NCBI RefSeq assembly: GCF_000949385.2
Contig: NZ_JYKO02000001.1
Location: 1,140,620-1,204,619 of the forward strand
DNA: 64,000 bases
Source of the DNA: Pseudomonas sp. LFM046
GTDB lineage: Bacteria > Pseudomonadota > Gammaproteobacteria > Pseudomonadales > Pseudomonadaceae
Direction of reading: 5' to 3'
Part shown: positions 7,619 through 43,347 of the stretch, piece after piece
How the letters are laid out: every line of letters starts with the position of its first letter
Numbering within the stretch: the first letter of the stretch is position 1
Program-made: the position numbers and the translations under genes
The notes under the pieces: generated by a model
Databases searched by the model: none
What the model was told of the DNA's origin: nothing
The model's input: the letters and a program-made list of their open reading frames with translations, nothing else

Positions 7619-7735
7619 CTGGACCTCCTCAAGGTTGGAATGGGCCAGATCCTACGCCTGCCAATTGAATCAATGGTGCGTGATTTTGCTGGGTTAGTAT
7701 CGAGTTGTTCGATCGGTTTGCAGCCAACCCAGCCT

Positions 7736-7768
7736 CCCCTGGAAGCGAGCGCCATGCGCTTCCAGGGG
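7736..7768. terminator. Strong stem-loop between MHS transporter and pirin genes
   Basis: A perfect 12-bp stem (CCCCTGGAAGCG paired with CGCTTCCAGGGG) with a nine-base loop lies just downstream of the MFS gene on the minus strand. No T-run follows on either strand, so intrinsic termination is uncertain; it may instead protect a 3' end. Confidence 0.5.
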
Positions 7769-7780
7769 GGCCGACCGACG

Positions 7781-9100
7781 TTAGGCCGACCGCACCGGGC
7801 TTGCGCCCAGCACCGGATCGGGCTCGCTGTCGATGGTATCCAGGCTGAGGTGCGCCGTCTCCCGCAGCAGATAGGAGCACAGCGCCACCAGGGCCAGTGC
7901 CGCGGCGCCATAGACCGCCACGCCGAAGGGGCTGCCGGTGGCGATGAGGATCGCCGTGGCCAGGCTGGAGGCCGTGCCGCCGCCGAAGGCCGCGCCGATC
8001 TGGTACGCAGCGGACATCCCGGAATAGCGCATGGAACGGGGGAACTGCTCGGCCAGGAACGCCGGGATCGGGCCCTGGGTGGCGCCCATCAGCGCGCCCA
8101 CCACCACATAGGCGGCGCAGGCGATGGCCAGGTTATGCAGGCCCACCAGCGCAAAGAACGCGAAGAAGCCTGCGGCCATCAGTACCGAGCCGAGGATCAT
8201 CACCGTGCGCCGGCCGAGACGGTCCGACAGGCAGGCGAACAGCGGCGCGCTGATGACGATGGCGACGGACAGCGACACATCGAACAGCAGCGCCTCGGTG
8301 CTGCCGTAGCCCAGTTGGGTGGCGTAGGCCAGGAAGAAGGTGCTGCCGATGTAGGCGATGGTCACGTAGCCGAAGGCGATGCCGATGCACAGCAGCATTT
8401 CCCTCGGACGGGAACGCAGTGCGGCCACCAGGGGCAGACGGGTGTTCTCGCGGCGTTCCAGCGGCTTCTTCACGGGGTTCGACAGGCGCGCGTAGAGGCC
8501 GATCAGCACCAGCACGCCACCGAGCCAGAAGGGAATGCGCCAGGCGAAACCGGCCAGATCGTCATTGAAGGCGGCGCTGACGATGGCGAACACCGCCGAG
8601 CCGAGGATGCCGCCGATGCCGATGCCCATGCTGGTGAAGCTGCCCCAGAGGCCGCGTCGCCCGCTCGGGGCCGACTCGATGCCGAACAGCGCCGCGCCAC
8701 CCCATTCACCACCGGCGGCGAAGCCCTGGATCAGGCGCAGCAGCACCAGCAGGACGGGGGCTGCCGCGCCGATGCTCTCGTGGGAAGGCAGGCAGCCGAT
8801 GGCCAGGGTGCTGAAACCCATCAGCAGCAGGGTGATGACCAGCGCCTTCTGACGACCGGCCTTGTCACCGAAATGGCCGAACACCATGCCGCCCAGGGGG
8901 CGGGCGAAGAAGCCGGCGCCGAAAGCGCCGAAGGCCACCAGGGTGGCGGTGAGCGGGGCCAGGTCCGGGAAGAACACCTGGGGAAAGACCAGGGCGGCGG
9001 CGATGCCGTAGATGACGAAGTCGTAGAACTCCAGGGCGGTGCCCATGCCCGAGACGAAGAACGTCCGGAGCGCCGATTGCGAGTGTTGTTGGTTAGCCAT
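7781..9100 (-). CDS. MFS transporter, metabolite:H+ symporter (MHS) family
   Basis: 439 residues with about 12 hydrophobic segments. ALEFYDFVIYGIAAALVFPQVFFP is the typical first-helix motif of the MHS group (ShiA, ProP, KgtP). GHFGDKAGRQK and ACLSDRLGRRT are the two loop repeats of the major facilitator fold, one per half. MHS members import organic acids, osmolytes or amino-acid derivatives with protons. It is next to a C45 hydrolase and an exported amidohydrolase on the same strand, suggesting it imports the product or substrate of those enzymes. The ligand itself is not predictable. Confidence 0.88.
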   Translation of the reverse strand: MANQQHSQSALRTFFVSGMGTALEFYDFVIYGIAAALVFPQVFFPDLAPLTATLVAFGAFGAGFFARPLGGMVFGHFGDKAGRQKALVITLLLMGFSTLAIGCLPSHESIGAAAPVLLVLLRLIQGFAAGGEWGGAALFGIESAPSGRRGLWGSFTSMGIGIGGILGSAVFAIVSAAFNDDLAGFAWRIPFWLGGVLVLIGLYARLSNPVKKPLERRENTRLPLVAALRSRPREMLLCIGIAFGYVTIAYIGSTFFLAYATQLGYGSTEALLFDVSLSVAIVISAPLFACLSDRLGRRTVMILGSVLMAAGFFAFFALVGLHNLAIACAAYVVVGALMGATQGPIPAFLAEQFPRSMRYSGMSAAYQIGAAFGGGTASSLATAILIATGSPFGVAVYGAAALALVALCSYLLRETAHLSLDTIDSEPDPVLGASPVRSA

Positions 9101-13099: not shown

Positions 13100-13305
13100 T
13101 TCGTCCGCACATGAATCCGCGCCCACCATGAATCGGCAGTCGAGGTGGAAGTCCCGTCCGAGGATTTCCACCCTGCCTTCGCGGAAAAGCGGCCCGGCTT
13201 CGCTTCCGTCACGCATGCCCTGCGTTCCATGATCACGGTCCTCCCGCCTGGAATCGAACCCGGCAGCCATTAAAAAAAACGACCCATTGGCCCTGATTAC
13301 ATCGT

Positions 13306-13334
13306 TTTTCAGGCTCTTGCCGCTTCCCTATATT
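13306..13334 (+). promoter_or_regulatory. Candidate sigma-70 promoter for the PLP gamma-enzyme gene
   Basis: TTTTCA (13306-13311) and TATATT (13329-13334) stand 17 bases apart in a locally AT-rich stretch. This would start transcription near 13341 and give a leader of about 50 bases that contains the hairpin described next. Confidence 0.45.
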
Positions 13335-13373
13335 GGCGCCATCGCAAGTCTTGAATTCAGGGACTTGCCAATA
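13331..13373. promoter_or_regulatory. Nested inverted repeat in leader of the PLP gamma-enzyme gene
   Basis: GCAAGTC (13344-13350) pairs with GACTTGC (13362-13368); an outer TATTGGC (13331-13337) matches GCCAATA (13367-13373); and the loop holds the palindrome TGAATTCA. It overlaps the predicted transcription start and ends 20 bases before the ATG. It could be an operator for one of the three regulators in the cluster or a leader-RNA hairpin. Confidence 0.5.
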
Positions 13374-13392
13374 TCGTTCATGGGAAACAGCA

Positions 13393-14670
13393 ATGAATAA
13401 CAAGACTGAAGTATCGGAACTTGGATGCGTGGGTATTGGCACGAGACTTGTTTGGGGTGGCGAAAAAGTTCGTCATCCTTACAACGCCACGCAAACGCCC
13501 ATTGTGGCAAGTGCGGCCTATGGTTATGACGATATTGATGTCTGGTACGACGTTGCCCTGGGTAATACACCCGGGTTCATCTACAGCCGGATGAGCAATC
13601 CCACGGTCGCCATACTCGAAGACAAGATCTGCGAACTGGAAAGCGCCGAATCCGCGGTCGCGTTCAGCAGCGGCATGGCCGCCATTAGCAGCGTGCTCAA
13701 CACCTTCCTCGCCAAGGGCGGTCGGGTGGTGTCCACCCGCGACAGCTACGGTGGCACCAACAAGATCTTCGAGGAGTTCCTGCCGCGCATGGGGGTGGAC
13801 GTCACCCTCTGCGACACCCTCGACCATGAGGCCATCGAACATGAGATCGCCCTGGGCTGCGATGTCCTCTACCTGGAAACCCCTACCAACCCGACCCTGA
13901 AGGTGCTGGACATTCGGCGCCTGGCCCAGGCCGCGAAGCGGGTCGGTGCCCTGGTGGTGGCGGACAATACCTTTGCCACGCCGTTGAACCAGAACCCGCT
14001 GTCGCTGGGCGTGGACGTGGTGGTGCACAGCGCCACCAAGTTCCTCAGCGGCCACGGCGATGTGCTGGGCGGACTGGTCTGCGGCTCTGGCGAACTAATG
14101 GCGAAAGTGCGCCACCACCGCGAGATCAATGGAGCCTCCCTCGATCCCTTCTCCGCGTACCTGATCATCCGCGGCATGAAGACCCTGGCGCTGCGCCTGC
14201 GTCAGCAGCAGCGGAGCGCCCAGGCCCTGGCGGAATACCTGCTCACCGAGCCCCTGGTGGAATCGGTGAACTACCCCGGCCTGCCCAGTCACCCCAACCA
14301 CGACGTGGCCCGCTCGCAGATGCGCGGCTTCGGCGCCATCGTCAGCTTCGTCCTGCGTGGCGGGATGGAGACGGTGAAGCACCTGCTGCCGCGCCTGCGC
14401 TATGCCCATCGGGCTGGAAACCTGGGGGCGGTGGAAACCATCTACGGTCCGGCGCGCACCACCAGCCATGTGGAAAACACCCTGGAAGAACGCCTGGCCC
14501 TGGGCATCTCCGAAGGACTGGTGCGGGTGTCGGTGGGAATAGAAGAAACGGATGATCTTCTGGCCGATCTCAAGCAGGCCTTCGAATACACGAAAGAGCA
14601 ACTTCTTAAGTCTGAACAATCCAACTTCATCCCTGTCCGGACCGAATGTCGCACCGAGGTGGAAATCTGA
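13393..14670 (+). CDS. Cystathionine gamma-synthase/lyase-family PLP enzyme
   Basis: 425 residues. YSRMSNP (65-71) holds the Tyr and Arg that reach the cofactor phosphate of the neighbouring subunit. FSSGMAA (91-97) is the cofactor phosphate loop, ADNTFATP carries Asp191 against the pyridine nitrogen, and SATKFLSGHGD carries the Schiff-base Lys216. The active-site tyrosine is in SYGGT, as in cystathionine gamma-synthases; the Cys typical of methionine gamma-lyase (YGCT) is absent. The family does gamma-eliminations and replacements on homoserine esters, cystathionine or methionine-type substrates. The first ~180 bases are noticeably less GC-rich than the rest. It heads a cluster with an S-methylmethionine-type permease and homoserine-handling enzymes, pointing to catabolism rather than methionine synthesis. 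Exact substrate unknown. Confidence 0.85.
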   Translation: MNNKTEVSELGCVGIGTRLVWGGEKVRHPYNATQTPIVASAAYGYDDIDVWYDVALGNTPGFIYSRMSNPTVAILEDKICELESAESAVAFSSGMAAISSVLNTFLAKGGRVVSTRDSYGGTNKIFEEFLPRMGVDVTLCDTLDHEAIEHEIALGCDVLYLETPTNPTLKVLDIRRLAQAAKRVGALVVADNTFATPLNQNPLSLGVDVVVHSATKFLSGHGDVLGGLVCGSGELMAKVRHHREINGASLDPFSAYLIIRGMKTLALRLRQQQRSAQALAEYLLTEPLVESVNYPGLPSHPNHDVARSQMRGFGAIVSFVLRGGMETVKHLLPRLRYAHRAGNLGAVETIYGPARTTSHVENTLEERLALGISEGLVRVSVGIEETDDLLADLKQAFEYTKEQLLKSEQSNFIPVRTECRTEVEI

Positions 14671-14817
14671 CGTTCGACGCATAAGCCAACTGGCCGGAGA
14701 GTCAGTGGGTTATTCATGAAAAGGAACAATAACAATACCTGGCGGCAATTCGTTTCGTTCTGCCTGGCAGTCAATGCAGAAGCTTACTTTGCCCTGAAAC
14801 TTTCATGAGACTCCAAT

Positions 14818-16245
14818 ATGTCCAGATCAACTACAACGAATAAGCAAACATCGGGTCCCGGTTTCAAACAGGACATGCAGACCCGTCATATCGTGATGCT
14901 GGCCCTGGGGGGCGTCATCGGCACCGGTCTGTTCCTGACCTCGGGCTACACCGTGAACCAGGCGGGTCCCCTGGGCGCCGTGATCGCCTACATCATCGGC
15001 GCGGTCATGGTTTACATGGTCATGATGTGCCTCGGCGAACTGGCGGTGCAGATGCCGGAAACCGGCTCCTTCAGCACCTACGCCACCCGCTACCTCGGCG
15101 CCGGCACCGGCTACACGGTGGCCTGGCTCTACTGGCTGACCTGGACGGTGGCCATCGGTTCGGAGTTCACCGCCGCGGGCATCCTGATGGCGCGCTGGTT
15201 CCCCGACACGCCGGTGTGGATCTGGAGCGCGATGTTCGCCGCCACGGTGTTCATCACCAATGTCGTCTCGGTGCGTCTGTTCGCGGAAACGGAGTTCTGG
15301 CTGTCCCTGGTGAAGGTGCTGACGGTCATCGCCTTCCTGGTGGTGGGCACCGGCGCGATCATCGGTGTGTTCGACGTGAAGGAGGCGCACAGCATCGGCC
15401 TCGGCAATTTCACCCGCGAAGGTCTGTTCCCCACCGGCTTCATGTCCATCGCCATGACGCTGCTGGCGGTGTCCTTCGCCTTCTCCGGCACCGAGCTGAT
15501 CGGCATCGCCGCAGGCGAGACCAAAGACCCGCAGCGCAACGTGCCCAAGGCCATTCGCACCACGGTGCTGCGCCTGGCGATCTTCTTCGTCGGCACCATC
15601 TTCGTCCTGGCCACGTTGTTGCCACGGGAGCAGGCGGGCCTGGTGGAGAGCCCCTTCGTCACGGTGTTCGAGTACATCGGCATCCCGTACTCGGCGGACA
15701 TCATGAACTTCGTGATCATCAGTGCGCTGCTCTCGGCGGCCAACTCCGGACTCTATGCGGCCTCGCGCATGCTCTGGACCCTGAGTGACCAGGGCCACAT
15801 GCCGCGCAGCTTCGGCGCGCTGTCCCGCCACGGCACACCGTTCAACGCCATCGTGGTGAGCATGGCCGGCGCTGGCGCCTCGCTGCTGAGCAGCGTGTTC
15901 GCGCCGGACACCATCTACCTCGCCCTGGTATCCATCTCGGGCCTGGCAGTGGTGGTGGTGTGGATGAGCATCGCCGCCAGCCAGATGGCGTTCCGCCGCC
16001 AGTTCGTCGCCAATGGCGGTGATGTGCGGGACCTGAAGTTCCGCGTGCGCGGCTACCCCTGGGTTCCGCTCGGCGCACTGGCGAGCTGCACCCTGGCCTG
16101 CGTGGGAATCGCCTTCGATCCGGCGCAGCGGGTGGCGCTGTACTTCGGCTTGCCCTTCATCGCCTGGTGCTACTTCGTCTTCTACCTCACCCGCAAGAGC
16201 CGCGAGCGGCGCCTGGCATCGGGGGCGGCGCCTGAGGCGGCCTGA
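14818..16245 (+). CDS. APC amino acid permease, S-methylmethionine permease (MmuP)-like
   Basis: 475 residues with about 12 membrane helices. The N-terminal [20 protein letters not shown] and the following [19 protein letters not shown], then [12 protein letters not shown] and [18 protein letters not shown], agree closely with E. coli MmuP as I remember it, far more than with AroP or ProY types. MmuP imports S-methyl-L-methionine. No homocysteine S-methyltransferase (mmuM), its usual partner, is in the window. It lies 147 bases after the PLP gamma-enzyme and 56 bases before a LysR gene, all on the plus strand. Family is secure; substrate assignment is by recalled similarity and needs alignment. 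Confidence 0.85.
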
Positions 16246-16301
16246 GCGGCATTGGGTTAGCCTGCGAGTCCGGACCATTGGATGAAAGGTGATGTCATGA
16301 G

Positions 16302-17201
16302 GTGCCTCGCGTGAACCAGAAAGCCCTGCCTCCGTTGAACTGGTTGCGTGCGTTCGAAGTGTCCGCCCGGTGCCTCAGCTTCACTCACGCCGCCCTGGAG
16401 CTGCACCTGACCCAGGGCGCCGTGAGCCAGCAGATCCGCCAACTGGAAAGCCACCTCGGCGTGGCGCTGTTCAAGCGCCTGCCTCGGGGCCTGGCCCTCA
16501 CGGAGGAGGGGCAGTCCTACCTGCCGGTGGTCCAGGATGCGATCACCCGATTGGCGGTGGGCACCAACGAAATCTTCGGCCAGCACCGGCAGCGGCCGAT
16601 CAAGATCCGGGGCAGCCTGTCGTACCTGCTGCTGTGGCTGGCACCCCGGCTGGCGGAGTTCAGGGCGGCGCATCCGCATGTGGATATCCGCTACATCAGC
16701 AACCTCTGGGTCAAGGAACTGGACGGCGAGGACGACATGGAAATCCGTTGGGGACACGGGCAGTGGCCGGGCCTGGTGTCCCAACGGCTGACCTGGGACA
16801 CCCTGTTCCCCGTCTGCTCACCGGACCTGCTGGCGCGCTCGCCGCTCACGGAGCCGGCCGACGTTGCCAGGCACGGGTTGCTGCACGTCCTGGGCTACGA
16901 GGAGGGTTGGGGCTACTGGCTGAAACGGGTGGGCGCCCATGACGTCGACTACTCCAGCGGAATGCAGTTCGACACCCTTGCCTCCACCCTGCGCATGGCC
17001 GAACTGGGGCAAGGGATCGCCCTGGCCCGTTCCTCCCTGGTGGAAGACCTGCTCCGGGAGGGGCGCCTGGTGGAGCCCTTCTCGCAGCGGATCGAAGCCA
17101 GCGAATCCTTCTATCTGGTGCGCGGCTCGGGGACTGACCTGCATCCCGATGCGATGACCTTCGCCACCTGGCTGGTGGCCCAGGCCCATCGCGGCAAATG
17201 A
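16302..17201 (+). CDS. LysR-type regulator, GcvA-like
   Basis: 299 residues from a GTG start at 16302 (a GTG at 16311 is also possible; AAGGTGAT lies just upstream). PPLNWLRAFEVSARCLSFTHAALELHLTQGAVSQQIRQLE is the DNA-binding domain of the GcvA/AmpR-like subgroup, and the effector domain follows. It stands between the permease and the threonine-synthase-like gene, on the same strand as both, so it is probably a local regulator of amino-acid uptake and breakdown genes. Confidence 0.92.
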   Translation: MPRVNQKALPPLNWLRAFEVSARCLSFTHAALELHLTQGAVSQQIRQLESHLGVALFKRLPRGLALTEEGQSYLPVVQDAITRLAVGTNEIFGQHRQRPIKIRGSLSYLLLWLAPRLAEFRAAHPHVDIRYISNLWVKELDGEDDMEIRWGHGQWPGLVSQRLTWDTLFPVCSPDLLARSPLTEPADVARHGLLHVLGYEEGWGYWLKRVGAHDVDYSSGMQFDTLASTLRMAELGQGIALARSSLVEDLLREGRLVEPFSQRIEASESFYLVRGSGTDLHPDAMTFATWLVAQAHRGK

Positions 17202-17217
17202 TCGATCGGAGCTACAC

Positions 17218-18591
17218 ATGCACTATGTGAGTACACGAGGCGCGGCTACCCGCGCCGACTTCGAAACCGTGGTTCTTTCCGGGCTCGCGGCGGACGGCGG
17301 CCTGTACGTCCCGGCCAGCCTTCCGAGCTTCAGTGCCCAGGAGATCGCCTACTGGTCCTGGCTGCCGTTCGACGAACTGGCCTGGCGAGTCATGGGGCCC
17401 TTCGTCGGCCCGGCGATTCCCGAGGACGCGTTCAAGGCGCTTCTCAAGGACACCTACAGCGCCTTTGCCCACCGGTCCATTGCGCCCCTGCATCAGGTGG
17501 ACCGCAACGAATGGGTGCTGGAGCTGTTCCACGGTCCGACCCGCACCGCCAAGGACTTCGCCGCCCAGCTGCATGCTCGCCTGGTGAGCTGGTTCCTCGA
17601 CCGCAACCAGCAACGGGCGCAGGTGCTGGGGGCCACCAACGGCGACACCGGGCTGGCCGCCATCGAGGCATTCGGCCGCGACGGGCAGGGCCGGGTGCTG
17701 GTGCTGTATCCGCGGGACGGCGTGCCGCTGGACCGCCTCGCCGCGTTGCAGGCCGCCGACCCGGCGCGGGTATTGGCTTTCGCGGTGGAGGGCAGCTTCG
17801 ACGATTGCCAGTCCATGGTGGCGGCGCTGTTCCGGGCCTGGCCGCTGCCAGGCGTCCATGCGGTTGGCTTCAACTCCACCAACTGGGTCGGCGTCATGGC
17901 TCAGCTGGTGCTCTACTTCCACGCCGCGCTACAGCTGGGCGGCGGCCTGCGGCCGGTCGGCTTCAGCATCCCGGCGGCCAGCTTCGCCGAGGTCTATGCG
18001 GGCTACATCGCGCAGAAAATGGGGCTGCCGATCAACCAGATCATCATTTCCACCAACCGCAATGACGCCCTGCATCAGTTCATCCACAGCAACCGTTACT
18101 CGACACGTCGCGCCGACCCGACCCTGTCGCCGGCGATGGATTTTTCTCACTTCGCCAACCTGGAACGCTTCGTCTGGGAGCTCTACGGCCACGATGACCA
18201 GCAGGTGAAGGCGCTGATGGAAAGCTTCGAGGCCAGTGGCGAGCTCGGCATTGCCAACCAGCACTGGCTGCAGGCACGGATGCTCATCGACTCCTATGCG
18301 GTCAGCGACGAGCAGACCATCGGCGAGATCACCCAGCTGTACCGCGACACCGGCTATGTCATTGACCCGCACACCGCCACGGGTGTGCTCGCCGCGCGAC
18401 TCTACCGGCGCAGCATGGTGACGCCCATGGTGACCCTGGGTGAGTTCGCCCCCGCCAAGTCGGCGGCATTGCTCGCCGAACTGGGCGTCTGGCCCGCGCC
18501 GGAACAGACCCCGGCGACCGTCGGCGGCCACCAACGGAGCATCCGTGTGGGCGATCTGGATACCGTTATCCAGGCGCTGGGCGCGTGGTGA
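17218..18591 (+). CDS. Threonine synthase paralogue with altered active-site loops
   Basis: 457 residues aligning along its whole length with proteobacterial ThrC (MHYVSTRGAATRADFE, DGGLYVP, EGSFDDCQ, TNRND, RYSTR). The cofactor lysine is kept (Lys112 in GPTRTAKDF), but nearby family motifs differ: GPTLAFKDF has become GPTRTAKDF, GATSGDTGSAA is GATNGDTGLAA, the glycine-rich PTGNFGD loop is PAASFAE (252-258), and the usual TAHPxKFPE is EFAPAKSAA (409-417). The loss of GNFG should change cofactor-phosphate binding, and the last loop is near the substrate phosphate site. It is unlikely to be the housekeeping ThrC. It starts 16 bases after the LysR gene and is followed 10 bases later by an Lrp-type gene. 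A diverged PLP enzyme on a homoserine- or methionine-like substrate is the best guess. Confidence 0.8.
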   Translation: MHYVSTRGAATRADFETVVLSGLAADGGLYVPASLPSFSAQEIAYWSWLPFDELAWRVMGPFVGPAIPEDAFKALLKDTYSAFAHRSIAPLHQVDRNEWVLELFHGPTRTAKDFAAQLHARLVSWFLDRNQQRAQVLGATNGDTGLAAIEAFGRDGQGRVLVLYPRDGVPLDRLAALQAADPARVLAFAVEGSFDDCQSMVAALFRAWPLPGVHAVGFNSTNWVGVMAQLVLYFHAALQLGGGLRPVGFSIPAASFAEVYAGYIAQKMGLPINQIIISTNRNDALHQFIHSNRYSTRRADPTLSPAMDFSHFANLERFVWELYGHDDQQVKALMESFEASGELGIANQHWLQARMLIDSYAVSDEQTIGEITQLYRDTGYVIDPHTATGVLAARLYRRSMVTPMVTLGEFAPAKSAALLAELGVWPAPEQTPATVGGHQRSIRVGDLDTVIQALGAW

Positions 18592-18601
18592 CGGAGACGC
18601 G

Positions 18602-19039
18602 ATGAAGCGCATTCTGGACCCCCTCGACGAACGCATCCTGGCGGAGCTCACCGCCAATGCCCGCATCGCCCACGCCGAGTTGGCGGCCAAGGTCAACCTG
18701 TCACGCAACGCCGTGCGCCAGCGCATCGAGCGGCTGGAGCGGGATGGCGCCATCCAGGGCTACACCATCCGCGAAGGCGACGGCCGCAAGCCGTCTTCAC
18801 AGATCAGCGCGGTGATCTTCGTCTACCGCTACGACCGCATGCGTGGCGACGAGGTATTGCGGGCCTTGCGGAACATCCCGGAAATCCTCCAATGCGAGGT
18901 CATGAGCGGCGAGTTCGACCTCATGGTGCGGGTCGGCGCGTCGAGTCCGGAGCGCGTGCATAACGTCTGGAAGGAAATCTCCGCCATGCCCGGCGTGGAG
19001 AACACCGTCACCTCCTTTGTGCTCGCCTCGGTGATCTGA
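18602..19039 (+). CDS. Lrp/AsnC-family transcriptional regulator
   Basis: 145 residues from ATG 18602. LDPLDERILAELTANARIAHAELAAKVNLSRNAVRQRIERL is the N-terminal helix-turn-helix (about 5-55). The C-terminal half is the RAM/ACT-like ligand domain (ISAVIFVYRY, ILQCEVMSGEFDLMVRV). Such proteins sense amino acids and control their transport and breakdown. It follows the ThrC-like gene by 10 bases, with an intrinsic terminator 33 bases after its stop. Confidence 0.93.
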   Translation: MKRILDPLDERILAELTANARIAHAELAAKVNLSRNAVRQRIERLERDGAIQGYTIREGDGRKPSSQISAVIFVYRYDRMRGDEVLRALRNIPEILQCEVMSGEFDLMVRVGASSPERVHNVWKEISAMPGVENTVTSFVLASVI

Positions 19040-19072
19040 GCGCGATAAACCGCCATCACGCAGCCTGCCCTG

Positions 19073-19109
19073 GCGCCGCCCGGACCTGTTCCGCGCGGCG
19101 CTTTTTCTT
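19073..19109 (+). terminator. Rho-independent terminator after the Lrp-type gene
   Basis: GCGCCGC (19073-19079) and GCGGCGC (19095-19101) form a GC stem followed by TTTTTCTTT. It would end the LysR/ThrC-like/Lrp transcript and separates it from the dehydrogenase operon. Confidence 0.75.
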
Positions 19110-19262
19110 TGGGGGCACGGAGGTCGTCGCCAGCTCTCCGGCCGGCGTTTCGGGGCTGGTCAGAATGGCCAGGAAATACAGCGGATTGCCATATTCAACT
19201 GCCACTGCCCTCCCTCGTAGGCTGGAACCCATGAAGCAACTGCCTGAATGGGAGGCAAAACA

Positions 19263-20306
19263 ATGACTGAATACAAGATCGCCCTGGTGGGCTTTGGTGG
19301 CGTGAATCGCGGCCTCGCGCAATTGATCGCCGAGCGCAACCCGGCCTGGCGGAAGGAGCTGGGCTTCAGCCTGAAGATCGTCGGCGTCACCGACCTGTTC
19401 CTCGGTTCGATCATGGATCGCGACGGCCTGGACGCCGCGCAGCTGGCCCGCCTGCCCAGCGTCAAGGGCGCCTTCGCCGAGCTGGCGGGCGGTTCCGCCG
19501 AAGCCTTCAACGAAACCATTATCAAGCAGTCCGGCGCCGACATCGTCGCCGAAGCCACCTTCACCAACCCGGTGGACGGCGAGCCGGCCACCACGTTCTG
19601 CCGCTGGGCCCTGGAAGCCGGCAAGCATGTGGTCACCACCAACAAGGGGCCCATTGCCCTGCATGCCGAGGAGCTCAAGGCGCTGGCCGGTCGCAACGGC
19701 GTCGCCTTCGAGTACGAAGGCTCGGTGATGAGCGGCACCCCGGTTATCCGCATGGCCCGGGAGACGCTGCCCGGCGCCTCGATCATCGGGTTCGAGGGCA
19801 TCCTCAATGGCACCTCCAACTACGTGCTGACCCGCATGGAAGAAGGCTTGAGCTTCACCGACGCCGTGGGCAAGGCCCAGGAGCTGGGCTATGCCGAGGC
19901 CGACCCGACCGCCGATGTGGAGGGCCACGACGTACGCCTGAAGGTGGTGATCCTGGCCAATGAGCTGCTGGGGGCGAAGCTGCGCACCAGCGATGTGCAC
20001 TGCAGCGGCATCACCCAGGTCAGCGCCGCCGATATCGAGAGTGCCCGGCAACGCGGCGCACGCTGGAAGCTGATCGGTTCCGCCAGCCGTGCTGCCGATG
20101 GAGCGGTCAGCGCCAGCGTCGAGGCCCGTTTGCTGGAGGGCAGCCATCCGCTGGCGGGCATCTCCGGGGCGACCAACGCCGTGTCGTTCGATACCGAACT
20201 GCTGGGCAAGGTGACCGTCTCCGGCCCGGGCGCCGGCCGCATCGAAACGGCCTTCGCGCTGCTGTCCGATATCGTCGCCATCCATACATCCGTATCCAAA
20301 CGCTAA
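19263..20306 (+). CDS. Homoserine dehydrogenase family protein, no ACT domain
   Basis: 347 residues from ATG 19263, preceded by GGGAGG at a proper distance (the upstream ATG at 19248 contains that site's bases and is unlikely). GFGGVNRG (10-17) is the dinucleotide loop, TTNKGP (125-130) carries the conserved Lys, NGTSNYVL (182-189) and [13 protein letters not shown] (211-223) are homoserine dehydrogenase signatures. Biosynthetic pseudomonad enzymes are about 430 residues with a C-terminal ACT domain for threonine feedback; this one stops after the catalytic domain, so feedback inhibition is not expected. It starts an operon with an aldehyde dehydrogenase 13 bases downstream, fitting oxidation of homoserine to aspartate semialdehyde. 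Confidence 0.88.
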
Positions 20307-20319
20307 GGGGAGCAGGCTC

Positions 20320-21738
20320 GTGAACGTATCCCGACTGGCTGTGGCCAAGGCCGTGGCCGAAGATCGAATCGACGTCGCCAATCCCTTCGACGGCAGCCTG
20401 CTGGGCAGTGTGCCCTGCCTCGCTGCCGCCGATGTGCCCGGCCTGCTGGAACAGGGGCGTCGCGGCGTCCAGGCCTGCGCCGCGCTGCCGCGCCACAAGC
20501 GCGCACGAATCCTGGAAACGGCGGCGCAACTCGTCGAGCGCGACGCCCCGTCGTTCGCGCAGCTCATCGTGGCGGAAGCCGGCAAGACCATTCGCCAGGC
20601 GGAAAAGGAGGTCCGGCGCTGCGTCAACACCCTCAAGCTGTCGGCGGAAGAAGCCCGGCGCAATGCGGGGGAGGTGGTGCCGTTCGATGCCTACGAGGGC
20701 TCCGAGTCGCGCCAGGGCTGGTTCACCCGTGACCCGCTGGGGCTGATCCTGGCGATCACGCCCTACAACGATCCGCTGAACCTGGTGGCGCACAAGCTCG
20801 GTCCGGCGGTCGCTGGTGGCAATGCGGTCATCCTCAAGCCCTCCGAGCTGGCGCCGCTGTCGGCCATCAAACTGGTGGATTGCCTAGTGGAGTCCGGCCT
20901 GCCGGACGCCGTGATCACCGTGGCTACCGGCGGTGCTGAGCTGGGCAAGGCGCTGGTCGCCGCCCGCGATGTGCGGATGATTTCCTTCACCGGCGGTTTC
21001 GTCACCGGCGAGAACATCGCCCGCAATGCCGGCCTGAAAAAGCTGGCCATGGACCTGGGCGGCAACGCGCCGGTGATCGTGATGGATGATTGCGACCTGG
21101 AGGCTGCCGTCGAGTCCTGCGTCTCGGGTGCTTTCTGGGCGGCGGGGCAGAATTGCATCGGCACCCAGCGATTGCTGGTGCAGGCTTCGATCTACGAGGC
21201 TTTCCGCGAGCGCTTCGTCGCCCTGGCTGAACGGCTGGTGGCGGGCGATCCGTCCCGTCCGGAGACCGATATCGGCCCGATGATCACCGAACAGGCCGCG
21301 CGGAACACCGAGCAGGTGGTGGCCGAGGCGCTCCATGAAGGTGCACGGCTGCTGTGCGGCCATCGGCGCCAGGGGTCCTGCTACGCCGCCACCGTGTTGG
21401 AAGCGGTGGATCACGGCAGCCGCCTGTGGCGCAACGAGGTCTTCGCGCCCGTGGTGGTGCTGGAGCCCTTCGACGCTCTGGACGACGCCATCGCGCTGGC
21501 CAACGAGCCCGAGTACAGCCTGCACGCCGGCATCTTCACCAACGATTTGCAGCAGGCCCTGGGCGCTGCCCGGCGCATCGAGGCGGGCGGGGTGATGATC
21601 AACGATTCCTCCGACTACCGCTTCGATGCCATGCCCTTCGGCGGCTTCAAGTACGGCAGCCTGGGGCGCGAAGGCGTGCGCTTCGCCTACGAGGAAATGA
21701 CCCAGCCGAAGGTGGTGTGCATCAACCAGCTGGACTGA
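20320..21738 (+). CDS. NAD(P)-dependent aldehyde dehydrogenase
   Basis: 472 residues from a GTG start with AAGGGGAGC upstream. ITPYNDPLN has the oxyanion Asn150, KPSE has Lys173, and GQNCIGTQR has the nucleophile Cys279. The general-base position, normally Glu in ELGG, is Asp245 here (MDLGGNAP), a notable change. It is closest in feel to the lactaldehyde/phosphonoacetaldehyde/semialdehyde dehydrogenase groups. Being 13 bases after the homoserine dehydrogenase, a likely substrate is aspartate 4-semialdehyde, giving aspartate without a phosphorylated intermediate. A strong terminator follows at 21773. Confidence 0.88.
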
Positions 21739-21772
21739 ACCGTCGGGTGACGTCCGTTCTCGGTCGTCCTTT

Positions 21773-21817
21773 GCATCGGGCAGGTCCGCTCGCCGCGCTG
21801 CCCGATGCGTTTTTTTC
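21773..21817 (+). terminator. Rho-independent terminator after the aldehyde dehydrogenase
   Basis: GCATCGGGCAG (21773-21783) pairs with CTGCCCGATGC (21798-21808), then G and a run of seven T. It sits between the aldehyde dehydrogenase and the RidA gene, so the latter is either read through or has its own promoter. Confidence 0.88.
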
Positions 21818-21862
21818 CAATTACGGCTCGAAGGCCAGGATTCATTGCAAGGCAGGAACCCC

Positions 21863-22207
21863 ATGATCGAACGCTTCGACGAAGGCAACCGGATGTCCAT
21901 GGCGGTGCGTTACGGGCGTCATTTCGAAACCGCCGGTGTGGTGGCCGACGACCTGACGCTGGATGTCCAGGAACAGGCGCGCCAGGCCCTGGCTGCCATC
22001 GACGTGCTCATGGCGCGGGCGGGTGTGACCCGGGATGACCTCACGCGGGTGCAGATCTGGATTGCCGATTACGCCGACTTCGATCGGGTGAATCAGGTTT
22101 ATGAGGCGTGGCTTGCGGGGCATCGCAAGCCGGTACGGGCCTGCGTGGAGAGCGGGTTGGGCGGATGTCTGATCGAAATCCAGGTGTTCGGTTACCTGGC
22201 GGACTGA
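21863..22207 (+). CDS. RidA family (YjgF/YER057c) enamine/imine deaminase-like protein
   Basis: 114 residues from ATG 21863 with AGGA upstream. QARQALAAIDVLMARAGVTRDDL and VQIWIADYADFDRVNQVYEAW match the Rid fold, and Arg92 in RKPVRACVE occupies the position of the carboxylate-binding Arg of RidA. The canonical IEIEAIA end is IEIQVFG here. RidA proteins hydrolyse reactive 2-aminoacrylate or 2-aminocrotonate released by PLP enzymes. That fits the two PLP enzymes upstream, whose gamma-elimination would release such enamines. It lies 124 bases after the aldehyde dehydrogenase behind a terminator. Confidence 0.88.
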   Translation: MIERFDEGNRMSMAVRYGRHFETAGVVADDLTLDVQEQARQALAAIDVLMARAGVTRDDLTRVQIWIADYADFDRVNQVYEAWLAGHRKPVRACVESGLGGCLIEIQVFGYLAD

Positions 22208-22274: not shown

Positions 22275-23039
22275 TCACTCGGCGATCTGCAGCTTCCGCG
22301 ACTGGGTGTAGACGTAGCGCAGCTTCTCGTACTCGAACGGGGAGTTGAGCTGGCCGTAGCGGAATTGGGTGGTGTAGCGCTTGTCCACCATGCGCAGCGC
22401 AGTGATTTCCGGGTGGTCGCTGCTGACTTCCGGCACGTTGAGGAAGTTGATCTGGTAGTCGGCCACGTAGTCCGCCACCAGCCCGCCGGTGTCCCGCACA
22501 TTGGACGGGCCGAGGACCGGTAGCATCAGGTAGGGGCCTTCGGTCATGCCGTAGTAGCCGAGGGTCTGGCCGAAGTCTTCGGACTGCTTGGGCAGGCCCA
22601 TGCGGGTCGCCGGGTCCCAGAGGCCGGCCACGCCGATGGTGGTGTTGAGCAGCAGGCGTCCGGTGATTTCCATGGAGCGCTGGCCCTTGAGCTGCAACAG
22701 GCTGTTGAGCAGGTTCGGCACGTCGCCCAGGTTGCTGAAGAAGTTGCTCACCCCGCTGCGCAGGAAGCGGGGTGTGACGTACTGATAACCGCGCACCACC
22801 GGCAGGAAGACCCATTCGTCGAAGCGGTAGTTGAAGTGGTAGACCCGCCGGTTCCACGACTCGAAGGGGTCGTAGACGTTCAGCGCGTCCAGGGTGGAAC
22901 GCTCGAATTCGCGCTGGTCCAGGCCGGGATTGAACTTGAGGTCCTTGAGCGGCTGGGTGAAACCATCCTTGTCCGGCTCCTGGGCCTGGGCCAATCCGCT
23001 GGTCAACAGCAGGGCAATGAAGAGCGCTTTCTTAGCCAC
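22275..23039 (-). CDS. mlaA: MlaA (VacJ) family outer-membrane lipid asymmetry protein
   Basis: 254 residues from a GTG at 23039; the longer frame to 23177 overlaps the upstream gene and lacks a signal. The start gives the signal peptide VAKKALFIALLLTSGLAQA-Q with no lipobox Cys, so this copy may be a soluble or unlipidated form. YDPFESWNRRVYHFNYRFDEW and NFFSNLGDVPNLLNSLLQLK are the VacJ core. MlaA extracts misplaced phospholipids from the outer leaflet and feeds the Mla shuttle. The start overlaps the stop of the hydrolase gene by eight bases, so the two are co-translated. Confidence 0.9.
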   Translation of the reverse strand: MAKKALFIALLLTSGLAQAQEPDKDGFTQPLKDLKFNPGLDQREFERSTLDALNVYDPFESWNRRVYHFNYRFDEWVFLPVVRGYQYVTPRFLRSGVSNFFSNLGDVPNLLNSLLQLKGQRSMEITGRLLLNTTIGVAGLWDPATRMGLPKQSEDFGQTLGYYGMTEGPYLMLPVLGPSNVRDTGGLVADYVADYQINFLNVPEVSSDHPEITALRMVDKRYTTQFRYGQLNSPFEYEKLRYVYTQSRKLQIAE

Positions 23040-24327
23040 GGAAGAACTCCAGCATGGCGTCGCCGTTGACGCGGTAGTTGAGGTTGCCGCAGTGCCCGCC
23101 GTGGGGATACACGGTGAGCCGGTCTCCCAGGGTGCGGCGCAAGAAGCCGAGGTCGCCGGGACCGAGGATGAGGTCATCGGCGTTGTGCATCACGGCGATC
23201 TTGTTGCTGGTCTTGAGGTAGTCCGCCAGGGCGTAGAGGCTGACCTGGTTGATCAGCTGGGTCAGGCTGCCGCCGTCATAGCGGGCGCGCCAGTAGGGGA
23301 TCAGCTGTTCGGTGATGTAGCAGTCGAAATCGCACTGCAGGGCGCGCTTGTAGAAGGGTGTCAGGCTGGTGCCTTCGCTGATGGGGAGTTTCACCGGGGT
23401 GATCAGGCCCCGGCGGTTGATCAGGTCCGAGGTGAAGGCGATGTCCGAGGAAGAGAAGCGGAACGAGGTGCCGATCAGCATTGCCATCTGCTCGTTGGAC
23501 AGGCGCTGCCTGGATTGCTGGAAGTCGAACAGCAGGGCGTCGTTGAGGTCGATGTAGCCCTTCTGCTGGAAGTAGCGGGTCAGCTTGCCCAGCACCACCT
23601 GGTAGAAGGTGGTGGTGTCATCCACGCCCTTGACCCGGGTCTGCACCAGGCGGTCGAGGTTGGTCACCGAGGTGTAGAGGTTCACCGGCGGATTGAGCAG
23701 CAGCACGCGCTTGAAGTTGAAGGCGCGGCGGGTTTCGTCCAGGTGGCTGACGAAGGCCGCCTCCAGGGCGCCGAGGCTGTAGCCGGTCAGGTAGAAATCG
23801 GTGATCGACAGGTCCGGGTGCTGGGCCCGCACGGCCTGCATGACCCGGTAGAGGTCGTCGGCGTCTTCGGCGGTGAGGCCCGGCGTGGCGTGGCGCGAGG
23901 CGGCGGCCATGAAGTCGTAGCTGGTGGGGGAGGAGAGCTGCACCACGTGGTAGCCGGCGCCGTAGAAGAGCCGCTTGAGGTTTTCCGCATGGGAGCTGGC
24001 GTAGTGGCCGCCGGTGCCGGCGATGACGAACACCAGCGGGGCAGGGCCCTTCTGCCGGGCCAGGCGGTAGCGCATTTTCTTCACCGACCAGAAGTTGTCC
24101 GGCAGGGCGCTTTCCCGCTCCGGGCGCAGCTTCAGGTCATAGTCGGCCTGGTTGATGTCATCGTCCTTCGGCACCTTGCTGCGCAAATCGGGCGGCGTGG
24201 TGGCGATGGTTGCCTCGAAGGGGTTGGAAATGGGGAAGCCGTAGCTTGCCGCATCCACGTCCGCAGCCAGCGCGGACGCGCAGAGGGTCAGGCTGCCCAA
24301 CAGGGCGGCGAGGCAAAGACGAAGCAT
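23032..24327 (-). CDS. Exported alpha/beta hydrolase-fold protein linked to mlaA
   Basis: 431 residues. MLRLCLAALLGSLTLCASALAA is a signal peptide. PLVFVIAGTGGHYASSHAENLKR holds the oxyanion-type HxG region, and LTGYSLGALEA holds the nucleophile Ser in GYSLG. HGGHCGNL near the C-terminus can supply the catalytic His. Homologues are often named serine/threonine kinase in databases, but no kinase motif is visible here. Overlap with mlaA suggests an envelope lipid role. Substrate unknown. Confidence 0.8.
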   Translation of the reverse strand: MLRLCLAALLGSLTLCASALAADVDAASYGFPISNPFEATIATTPPDLRSKVPKDDDINQADYDLKLRPERESALPDNFWSVKKMRYRLARQKGPAPLVFVIAGTGGHYASSHAENLKRLFYGAGYHVVQLSSPTSYDFMAAASRHATPGLTAEDADDLYRVMQAVRAQHPDLSITDFYLTGYSLGALEAAFVSHLDETRRAFNFKRVLLLNPPVNLYTSVTNLDRLVQTRVKGVDDTTTFYQVVLGKLTRYFQQKGYIDLNDALLFDFQQSRQRLSNEQMAMLIGTSFRFSSSDIAFTSDLINRRGLITPVKLPISEGTSLTPFYKRALQCDFDCYITEQLIPYWRARYDGGSLTQLINQVSLYALADYLKTSNKIAVMHNADDLILGPGDLGFLRRTLGDRLTVYPHGGHCGNLNYRVNGDAMLEFFRG

Positions 24328-34667: not shown

Positions 34668-35489
34668 GTCCTTGATTCCTCGCGTGTCAGAGGGGCTGCG
34701 TCCCGCCGTTACGACACGGTAGGGAGGCGGGGCGTGCAGGGGTCGCAAACCGGTTACGCGAGGAAAACCCGGCAAGGCCGAAGCCTTCCCTGCACGACCC
34801 GCCATGATTGCAACTGGGCGCATGGCATGCCGTGACCTGCGTGAAGTTCGGGTTGCGACACCCGGTCGTGGTTCCAGCCACGACAGCCGTGGACTCTAGC
34901 GAGCGCATTTGTAGGCACTCAAGGTTGACGGCCTGTACGAAATGTCTGGCAAGAGCGATGAACGCCACAGCCGGGGCCGGGCCTGGTTCGTACACAAGCA
35001 GGTCTTGCGGAATCGGGCGAGATAGAGCGGTTTCGCGATGGTTCTCCGGAATTGCCGACGAAATGCACGCCAATTTCCCCGTTTTGTCATCGTTCCGTAG
35101 CAAAGCTTCTACACTCTGTACCCAGAGTCTATTGGTGCTCTGTGCTTTGTCTGGGCCGCCCTTTGGCGGCCCTTTTTGTGTCCGCCGCTTTTATCCGGCC
35201 AACCTGTCGCTGGTACGGAATTCTCGCCACTTCATCGCCTTTCAGGTCGCACCCCATTCTGGGTAATCGTCACGGATTCAATGGGATAGTGTTGCCGATT
35301 GGGGGTTATCAGGCTGCGCCCATACTTTGACGCTGCTGGGGCGCCCATCTACTACTGAATTACGTCCCCGGTGCGGGGCAGTCAGGTCGAATTTCGGCTA
35401 AAAGTGCTGAAGGAGGCGGCTATTGCCGTCAGTCTGCCGATTTCTTGCGCTTTCATTCTGGCTCTGCTCGATAGCGGCGAGGCAGCGAC
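34668..35489. other. Long intergenic region, no supported protein gene
   Basis: 822 bases between divergently placed genes (DUF6124 on minus, pentaheme cytochrome on plus). Open frames here have no recognisable similarity and poor starts. It contains a hairpin GTCGTGG/CCACGAC (34867-34886) and an orphan rho-independent terminator at 35153. The base composition is more AT-rich than the genes around it, particularly 35040-35290, which fits promoter or small-RNA DNA. Confidence 0.6.
35153..35177 (+). terminator. Orphan rho-independent terminator, possible small-RNA 3' end
   Basis: GGGCCGCC and GGCGGCCC close a CTTT loop and are followed by five T. No plus-strand gene lies within 800 bases upstream, so it may end a small RNA starting after 35084 (TTGTCA at 35084-35089, TACACT at 35110-35115; the 20-base spacing is poor). 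Confidence 0.75.
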
Positions 35490-41602: not shown

Positions 41603-43343
41603 TCAGTTCATCCGGCTCAATGGGAACAACAGGTCGATGAACCGCTCCGCCGTGGGCTGCGGCTGGTGGTTGGCCAGGCCGACCCGCTCGTTGGCCTCGA
41701 TCAGCACGTAGTCCGGCTGATTGGCCTCGGGCACCAGCAGGTCCAGACCCACCACGGGGATTTCCAGGGTGCGGGCGGCGAGGATGGATGCCTCGGCCAG
41801 CGCCGGGTGGAGGGTGTCGGTGACATCCTCCAGCGTGCCGCCCGTATGCAGGTTGGCGGTGCGCCGCACGGCCAGGCGGGTGCCGGGTGGCAGCACGTCG
41901 TCATAGCCGTGCCCGGCGGCGCGCAGGGTGCGTTCGGTTTCGCCATCCAGGGGGATGCGGCTTTCCCCCTTGCGTGGCCGCCTGACGCCGGCGGCTCTGG
42001 CGTTCGATCAGCTGGCGCAGCGTGCGCTGGCCATCGCCGACCACTTCGGCGGGGCGGCGGATGGCGGCGGCCACCACTTCGTAGTTGATCACCACCACCC
42101 GCAGGTCGAGACCCTGGTGGCAGCTTTCCAGCAGCACCCGGCTGCCGAAATGTTCGGCATGGGTGATGGCGGTGTTCACCTCATCCAGGTTGCGCAGGTC
42201 CACCGCCACGCCCTGGCCCTGCTCGCCATTTACCGGCTTGACCACCAGGCTGCCGTGCTCGGCGAGAAAGGCGGCGTTCTCTTCATCCGTGCCGGCCAGG
42301 CGCTGGGCAGGCTGGCGGATACCGACCCGGGCCAGGGCGCGATGGGTCAGCTGCTTGTCCTGGCAGAGGGTCATGCTCACCGCGCTGGTGAGGTCCGACA
42401 GGGATTCCCGGCAGCGGATGCGCCGGCCCCCCTGGCTGAGGCTGAAGAGCCCGCCCTCGGCATCGTCTACCTGCACCTCGATGCCTCGGCGCAGGGCTTC
42501 GTTGACGATGATGCGGGCGTAGGGATTGAGCTCCGCTTCCGGGCCGGGACCGATGAACAGGGTCTGGTTGATGCTGTTCTTGCGCTTCACCGTGAAGGTG
42601 GCCAGGTCCCGGAATCCCAACCGGGCATAGAGCGCCTTGGCCTGGCGGTTGTCGTGCAGCACCGAGAGGTCCAGGTAGTTCAACCCGCGGCTCATGAAGT
42701 GCTCCACCAGATGGCGTACCAGGGCTTCGCCGACGCCGGGCCGGCTGAGTTGCGGGTCCACCGCCAGGCACCAGAGGCTGGAACCGCCATCCGGGTCGTG
42801 GAATGCCGTCGCGTGGTTGAGGCCCATGACCGCGCCGATCACCTGGCTGTCGCGCTCGTCCTCGGCCAGCCAGTAGACCGGCCCGCCCAGCTGGCGCGGG
42901 GTGATGGCGCCGTGATCCACCGGCAGCATGCCGCGACGGAGGTAGAGCTGGTTGACCGCCTGCCAGTCGGCGTCGGTCTGGGCCCTACGGATACGGAAGC
43001 CGCGAAAGGCCCGGCGCGCCGGGCGGTAGTCGGGAAACCAGAGTCGCAGGGTGTCGGAGGGGTCGAGGAACAGCTGTTGCGGCGCCTGGGCCAGCACTTG
43101 CTGCGGCGCGGCGACGTAGAGGGCGATGTCGCGCTCGCCGGGGCGCTCCTCCAGCAGCTCCCGGGCCAGGCTCGCGGAGTCGGGGAAGGTGTGGCCGAGG
43201 AGCAGTCGGCCCCAGCCGCAATGGAGGACCCGTGGCGGTCCCTTGAGTGCCAGGTGGCCTTCCGCGAGGCGCGCCTGCAGGCGCTGATAGGAAGGCACCT
43301 GGCCGCGCAGCAGGCGCTGGCTGTGCAGGGTATGGGTTTTCAT
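41603..43343 (-). pseudogene. ngg: N-acetylglutaminylglutamine synthetase, single-base frameshift
   Basis: The intact product would be about 580 residues: an N-terminal GNAT acetyltransferase (about 100-260; LWCLAVDPQLSRPGVGEALVRHLVEHF) fused to an ATP-grasp ligase (VVKPVNGEQGQGVAVDL onward). It acetylates and joins two glutamines for the osmolyte NAGGN. The reading frame is open from 43343 to 41970, then shifts. The true end (GTRLAVRRTANLHTGGTLED... to PLSRMN at 41603) continues in another frame. Removing one base from the five-C run at 41965-41969 restores ...AATQGESRIPLDGETERTLRAAG... across the joint. The gene starts four bases after the amidotransferase stop. Either a real inactivation or phase-variable switch, or a sequencing error in a homopolymer. 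Confidence 0.85.
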
Positions 43344-43347
43344 CGGT

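Follow-up and report, generated by a model that had tools for sequence, protein, structure and literature searches.

The stretch of DNA analysed here (the window, 64,000 nucleotides of the genome of Pseudomonas sp. LFM046, contig NZ_JYKO02000001.1) carries a cluster of eight plus-strand genes at 13393..22207, which by sequence comparison is a sister of the operon found beside stand-alone B3/4 genes, of canavanine type, with another first enzyme. The gene content and order of the cluster are co-conserved among its relatives, and the family of its gamma-lyase is linked in part to genes of ectoine catabolism. From these comparisons we infer, with a probability of roughly two in three, a catabolic logic that leads from homoserine to aspartate. 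The cluster, which would be inducible by its substrate, would break down a gamma-substituted 2-aminobutyrate. The permease would import the amino acid, and a pyridoxal 5'-phosphate (PLP) enzyme of the NF006097 family would strip off the gamma group and add water to give L-homoserine, which a homoserine dehydrogenase (HSD), acting in the oxidative direction, would convert to L-aspartate-4-semialdehyde for final oxidation to L-aspartate by an aldehyde dehydrogenase (ALDH). L-2,4-Diaminobutyrate appears to be the leading candidate substrate, with a likelihood slightly short of even, and in that case the gamma-amino group would leave as ammonia.

The cluster and its sister operon

Bit scores were obtained from profile searches of the window proteins against Pfam-type domain families and NCBIfam/TIGR models with cut-offs. 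All eight open reading frames were found on the plus strand, each belonging to the expected family, in agreement with a preliminary description made from the letters of this stretch. The first encodes a cystathionine gamma-synthase (CGS)-family PLP gamma-lyase (13393..14670, likely ATG start at 13393; Cys_Met_Meta_PP, 437.7 bits). Further downstream lie an Lrp/AsnC-type regulator (18602..19039, by its family match), the HSD (19263..20306, likely ATG start at 19263; Homoserine_dh, 203.9 bits) and the ALDH (20320..21738; Aldedh, 475 bits), which is proposed to be a non-phosphorylating aspartate-4-semialdehyde dehydrogenase. As a side remark, the ALDH at 20320-21738 may be a candidate for a misannotated aspartate-semialdehyde dehydrogenase. 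A domain search at E 0.001 found no ACT domain in the HSD, as had been described.

Relatives were taken as the best 80 of 95 loci found with the gamma-lyase protein, two of the 80 sharing one contig, and comprised 75 loci from Pseudomonas, four from Marinomonas and one from a Paucimonas metagenome-assembled genome. The order CGS, permease, LysR, ThrC-like, Lrp, HSD, ALDH is kept in 70 of these, an arrangement that exceeds chance. Five loci end after Lrp (four of those stretches meet a contig end, that of L033 does not), one (L010) has a more distant HSD and no ALDH in the fetched stretch, and the four Marinomonas loci hold CGS and LysR alone of the cluster; the LysR gene accompanies the gamma-lyase gene in 80/80. 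The expectation that all eight families would be co-conserved thus held for the seven from CGS to ALDH and failed for the RidA-family protein (21863..22207, likely ATG start at 21863; Ribonuc_L-PSP, 62.8 bits). This protein, counted where a tblastn match at E 1e-8 with at least 55% identity lay within the stretch, occurs in only 12 of the 80 loci, all of them among the 70 with the full order, and was therefore rejected as a core member and regarded as accessory.

The family names themselves, together with a ThrC-like protein that clears the TIGR00260 cut-off (181.6 bits; cut-off 167.1), would be compatible with mere duplicates of housekeeping genes that serve the synthesis of methionine and threonine. 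This explanation has next to no likelihood, because the host genome (5.97 Mb, four contigs) holds a separate hom-thrC pair and five CGS-family genes, four besides that of the window, and the genes of the cluster are accordingly not simple housekeeping copies. The second HSD (locus L002) is 41% identical over residues 118-345 of the window HSD, and the ThrC adjoining it is 48% identical to the ThrC-like protein of the window, which has itself lost threonine-synthase hallmarks. The NF006097 gene is, furthermore, patchy: with the host genome counted, it was present in 12/248 genomes of the bacterial family, 7/18 of the genus, 7/390 of the order, 3/360 of the class and 3/398 of the phylum, and also in 12/116 genomes of a second family within that order, with 11 of these matches above the cut-off. 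We take the P. putida KT2440 tags PP_0659 to PP_0665 to denote the same cluster. The accessible portions of the literature on six KT2440 tags between PP_0659 and PP_0665 gave no function for it.

A canavanine utilisation operon is known from Pseudomonas canavaninivorans and Rhizobium leguminosarum. In the 2022 work of Hauth on the canavanine gamma-lyase, homoserine and aspartate-semialdehyde dehydrogenase activities were reportedly induced along with the gamma-lyase. The operon converts canavanine to homoserine and hydroxyguanidine, and a stand-alone B3/4 gene lies directly in front of it (PMC10018355, accessible part), for which reason such genes were used as bait. Matches to B3/4 were collected from 398 genomes, and 30 of the genomes with at least two matches were re-searched. 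Leaving aside the split gene of G565, this gave 32 matches in short frames, and stretches were fetched for 30 of them, all but G737 C12 and G735. Five of the 30 (L099, L107, L108, L109 and L112) cluster B3/4 with a ThrC-like gene, Lrp, ALDH and a CGS-family enzyme, four of them also with an HSD; the gene set was absent from the other 25 stretches. The order in L099 and L109 is B3/4, a dapA-like gene, an opposite-strand gene, ThrC-like, Lrp, HSD, ALDH and CGS, while L107 has a permease inserted between ALDH and CGS, and in L108 an HSD was found neither between ALDH and Lrp (about 7655-7845) nor elsewhere in the stretch. Judged from gene content and the position of B3/4, rather than from a named P. 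canavaninivorans record, these loci fit the canavanine operon. Window proteins are 59% (Lrp), 68-69% (HSD), 67-68% (ALDH), 37-40% (ThrC-like) and 34-36% (CGS) identical to their B3/4-linked counterparts. The dapA-like gene between B3/4 and the remaining operon spans 10300-11196 in L099 and 10207-11109 in L109 (the latter copy judged by eye), and the L099 copy scores 124.8 bits on TIGR00674, with a cut-off of 206.

With Lrp, HSD, ALDH and ThrC-like genes in common, it could be envisaged that the window cluster is the canavanine utilisation operon itself. This is highly improbable in view of the gamma-lyase, which is of a different subfamily (the L099 enzyme scores 283.8 bits on NF006097, far below the cut-off of 600), and of the absence of a stand-alone B3/4 match from all 18 genus genomes, that of the host included, each of which has a single match, lying in a reading frame of PheT size (795-863 residues). 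The ThrC-like proteins also differ at the PLP lysine. A sister relation to the canavanine-type operon thus remains the preferred reading. The preliminary description had proposed a catabolic island with homoserine as its hub, an oxidising HSD and an ALDH leading to aspartate, which is plausible by comparison with the canavanine logic and the sister genes; the label of a candidate new island was right only in part, as this type of pathway is already known from canavanine and it is the first enzyme that differs.

The gamma-lyase family and its candidate substrate

The window gamma-lyase scores 723.3 bits on NF006097 (PRK08249; cut-off 600), and the enzymes from Priestia (764 bits) and Klebsiella (651 bits) are likewise above the cut-off. 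Loci that are short duplicates (L087-L093, L129-L143 and L159) were excluded from the alignment, as were proteins of fewer than 330 residues, and 40 rows were picked from the remainder for a tree, in which long branches occur among the outgroups and for Klebsiella. NF006097 forms a single clade (support 100/99), in which Klebsiella branches first, followed by an order/class-level clade (100/95) and then by Priestia beside Pseudomonas/Marinomonas; the latter grouping is supported at 91/90, under the star limit, and the Pseudomonas/Marinomonas clade at 100/100.

Outside the Pseudomonas/Marinomonas clade, 7/14 NF006097 loci adjoin ectoine-catabolism genes (L084, L085, L126, L146, L147, L148 and L153), the expected product of which is 2,4-diaminobutyrate. 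The 14 include L154, a gene truncated where its contig ends, which at 582 bits falls short of the cut-off and was kept out of the tree. Locus L085, on a Klebsiella IncFIB plasmid, has ehuABCD, EhuR (568 bits; cut-off 480), DoeA, DoeB (both as annotated) and CGS, and the annotation of the 17 kb shown, on a plasmid whose gene table is incomplete, includes neither DoeC nor DoeD (the standard-route transaminase/semialdehyde dehydrogenase). A Pluralibacter IncFIB plasmid (L164), one of two additional plasmids of the linked lineages on which the arrangement recurs, carries ehuBC, a regulator, doeA, doeB and CGS. In Priestia (L084) the order is EutB-PdxS-EutD-EutC-CGS-M20-HSD-ALDH. EutB passes its cut-off, EutD and the M20 protein, which is DoeB2-like, fall short of theirs, and the cyclodeaminase, HSD and ALDH are present. 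DoeB of L126 is above and DoeA below the respective cut-off, and DoeA/DoeB of L146, L147, L148 and L153 were recognised by similarity. Gene order differs among the ectoine-linked loci, and an Lrp-like gene, identified by eye, is divergent from the lyase in L149, L151, L152, L153 and L154. Family searches of the eight window proteins found no ectoine hydrolase or acetyl-diaminobutyrate deacetylase among them. On both enterobacterial IncFIB plasmids (L085 and L164), the ectoine import and degradation set ends in an NF006097 enzyme.

Diaminobutyrate is favoured because NF006097 relatives adjoin ectoine genes and because in Priestia an HSD and an ALDH join them. By extension, and as a tentative proposal only, NF006097 could be a hitherto undescribed family of L-2,4-diaminobutyrate gamma-lyases yielding homoserine. 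On plasmids of enterobacteria and Priestia, as well as in some Pseudomonadales, it would bring ectoine breakdown to an end without a transaminase, and in Pseudomonas it would provide a free-standing diaminobutyrate pathway. This would assign a function to a family annotated merely as 'cystathionine gamma-synthase family protein' and would offer another way of completing ectoine breakdown. A literature search brought up no paper on a lyase or ammonia-lyase of diaminobutyrate; most subscription papers were beyond its reach and novelty is unproven.

The PLP lysine, K216, is conserved in all aligned rows. Y64, R66, Y119, K216 and R378 are conserved across the NF006097 rows, R378 being absent from a single row of the order/class-level group, the group to which the truncated L154 belongs. 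R243-E244 is fixed in the NF006097 rows, and the position of the methionine gamma-lyase Cys is occupied by glycine, Gly121 in 87/87 rows of the Pseudomonas/Marinomonas clade. All 87 rows of this clade also have M67, G342 and Y351, where others have Asn, Ala and Val, respectively; from neighbouring motifs we infer that these three residues line the pocket.

S-Methylmethionine had been put forward as a possible substrate, to be imported by an MmuP-like permease and cleaved at the gamma position to dimethyl sulfide and homoserine, the latter passing through the same HSD and ALDH to aspartate. Dimethyl sulfide leaves readily, and S-methylmethionine is common in plants. The changes by which the Pseudomonas/Marinomonas clade differs near the active site would allow for this substrate, and the permease (14818..16245; AA_permease, 423.5 bits) has as its nearest named model the S-methylmethionine permease NF008484 (MmuP), on which it scores 641 bits, the next best model reaching 401. 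However, that score is under the model's cut-off of 716, and in two Marinomonas loci whose enzymes fall within this clade (L042 and L068) an amino-acid-type ATP-binding cassette (ABC) transporter takes the place of the permease, while a third (L081) has no adjoining transporter. The L042 transporter parts do not reach the cut-offs of the listed models that carry a substrate name, and a lineage-dependent import partner is consistent with an amino-acid substrate. As the permease resemblance was its sole basis, and as other contexts of the gamma-lyase family point to ectoine and 2,4-diaminobutyrate, S-methylmethionine is an unlikely substrate.

Many CGS-family lyases yield 2-oxo acids. The window enzyme might, in like manner, produce 2-oxobutanoate rather than homoserine, with HSD and ALDH taking a separate homoserine feed, and the presence of RidA in 12 of the 80 loci and the lack of HSD and ALDH near the gamma-lyase in the four Marinomonas loci would both be in keeping with this. 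We regard it as doubtful, since the enzyme stands together with HSD and ALDH in 70/80 loci and in Priestia, and since the canavanine precedent yields homoserine (PMC10018355, accessible part).

Homoserine formation from diaminobutyrate, the reading preferred here, must be weighed against several points. The permease resembles MmuP, the four Marinomonas loci are without HSD or ALDH beside the gamma-lyase, and L108, one of the five B3/4-linked loci, is without HSD in its stretch. Half of the 14 loci (L149, L150, L151, L152, L154, L155 and L156) do not lie beside ectoine genes, the sole ectoine-like feature of L151 and L152 being an M24-peptidase match of 22-23% about 8 kb away. Where ectoine genes are adjacent, EutD and the M20 protein of Priestia and DoeA of L126 are under their curated cut-offs, and the links are non-independent: four of the linked loci come from one genus (g297, four of whose five loci are linked), one is among the five loci of g359 and the rest belong to plasmid lineages. 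The ectoine-linked enzymes share only 52-59% identity with the window enzyme. Finally, a long stem (1.0) leads to the Pseudomonas/Marinomonas clade, whose M67, G342 and Y351 lie near active-site motifs, so that specificity may have shifted; it is because of these clade-wide changes that the claim for diaminobutyrate is kept modest.

The ThrC-like protein, promoters and neighbouring features

The ThrC-like protein (17218..18591; Thr_synth_N and PALP) retains the PLP lysine, K112, in 78/78 window-type rows. In the same 78 rows, compared with a biosynthetic yardstick of only two rows plus 4f4f, TGNF is changed to AASF (TASF in 7), GATSGDTG to GATN and NWAR to NW[V/I][G/S/N]. We take TGNF, GATSGDTG and the arginine of NWAR to be motifs of biosynthetic ThrC. 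The earlier assignment of this protein as an enzyme acting at the gamma carbon is thus doubtful. The B3/4-linked ThrC-like proteins have Gln at the PLP lysine in 5/5 loci and may be pseudoenzymes with a retained role; since the window type keeps the lysine, different threonine-synthase hallmarks have been lost in the two cassette lineages. A role as threonine synthase seems unlikely for either type, and the ThrC-like proteins may instead be sensors, scavengers of vinylglycine-type by-products or catalysts of a new reaction.

Three conserved non-coding blocks, all on the plus strand, were found by alignment of upstream regions. The block before the gamma-lyase gene (13264..13310; 80 regions, the window and 79 loci) has the same base in 75% or more of the rows at 35/47 columns and is the probable promoter/operator of a first operon. 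A short block precedes the permease gene (14713..14737; 77 regions, the window and 76 loci), and that before HSD (19157..19203; 72 regions, the window and 71 loci) is the probable promoter/operator of a second operon. Conservation of these blocks before CGS, permease and HSD suggests at least two controlled promoters. The LysR-type regulator (16311..17201; HTH_1 and LysR_substrate), with a likely GTG start at 16311 like its Marinomonas homologues, has GcvA as its nearest named model (275.8 bits, under the cut-off of 288); control of the first promoter probably lies with LysR and that of the second with Lrp. As a possible operator in the window promoter, the inverted repeat AAAAACGA-N19-TCGTTTTT was considered and then dropped, because its 6+6 core is exact in 0/80 relatives (with at most one mismatch in 12/80), although the block around it is conserved. 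A consensus scan yielded no more sites than chance would give, with one promoter-like site (13306-13334; 1.0 expected) and four terminator-like sites (4.9 expected).

An MlaA lipoprotein gene on the minus strand (22275-23177) forms the downstream boundary of the cluster. Elsewhere in the window, a C4 antisense RNA (RF01695) lies on the minus strand at 34720-34809 (71.5 bits; gathering threshold 45), a type of RNA usual in P4-like phages or satellites. At 41901-45117, also on the minus strand, an asparagine-synthase/amidotransferase gene adjoins a GNAT-domain gene, a pair that to our mind recalls the synthesis of N-acetylglutaminylglutamine amide, presumably an osmoprotectant pathway.

Comparison with known systems

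Methionine gamma-lyase belongs to the same fold family as the window enzyme and provides its best matches in the PDB by sequence. The active-site Cys and Lys-Asp of the methionine gamma-lyases shown are, however, replaced by Gly121 and Arg243-Glu244, the former presumably at the position of Cys116, and the window enzyme scores 385 bits on the methionine gamma-lyase model TIGR01328, well under its cut-off of 549.7. In comparison with mmuPM, the window permease resembles MmuP at a score below the cut-off, and no MmuM-type protein is present among the eight window proteins. Homoserine breakdown would be shared with the homoserine-use cluster of R. leguminosarum (Vanderlinde 2014, as cited in the accessible part of PMC10228743), the likeness being one of description only.

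The Bacillales ectoine cluster is given as pucR-eutBCD-atf followed by abgB-thrA-adh, with roles termed tentative, in the accessible part of PMC13188858. The Priestia NF006097 enzyme, accompanied by HSD and ALDH, sits roughly at the position of atf in that scheme, and the Priestia HSD and ALDH are 45% and 48% identical, respectively, to those of the window.

The closest likeness is to the canavanine operon, in which, as proposed here, a CGS-family gamma-lyase leads to homoserine and with which, through the fitting loci, Lrp, HSD, ALDH and the ThrC-like gene are shared. Its step from homoserine to aspartate is matched in the window at the level of sequence, by the HSD at 68-69% and the ALDH at 67-68% identity. 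In contrast, the canavanine-type gamma-lyase is of another subfamily, lies on a separate branch of the tree and does not pair with the window enzyme as an orthologue, and the window cluster has no B3/4 gene and has a LysR regulator and an MmuP-like permease in addition. If the proposed reading is true, Pseudomonas has joined an NF006097 enzyme to an importer and a canavanine-type homoserine-to-aspartate cassette, and this cassette would be a module to which different gamma-lyases can be fitted as first enzymes.

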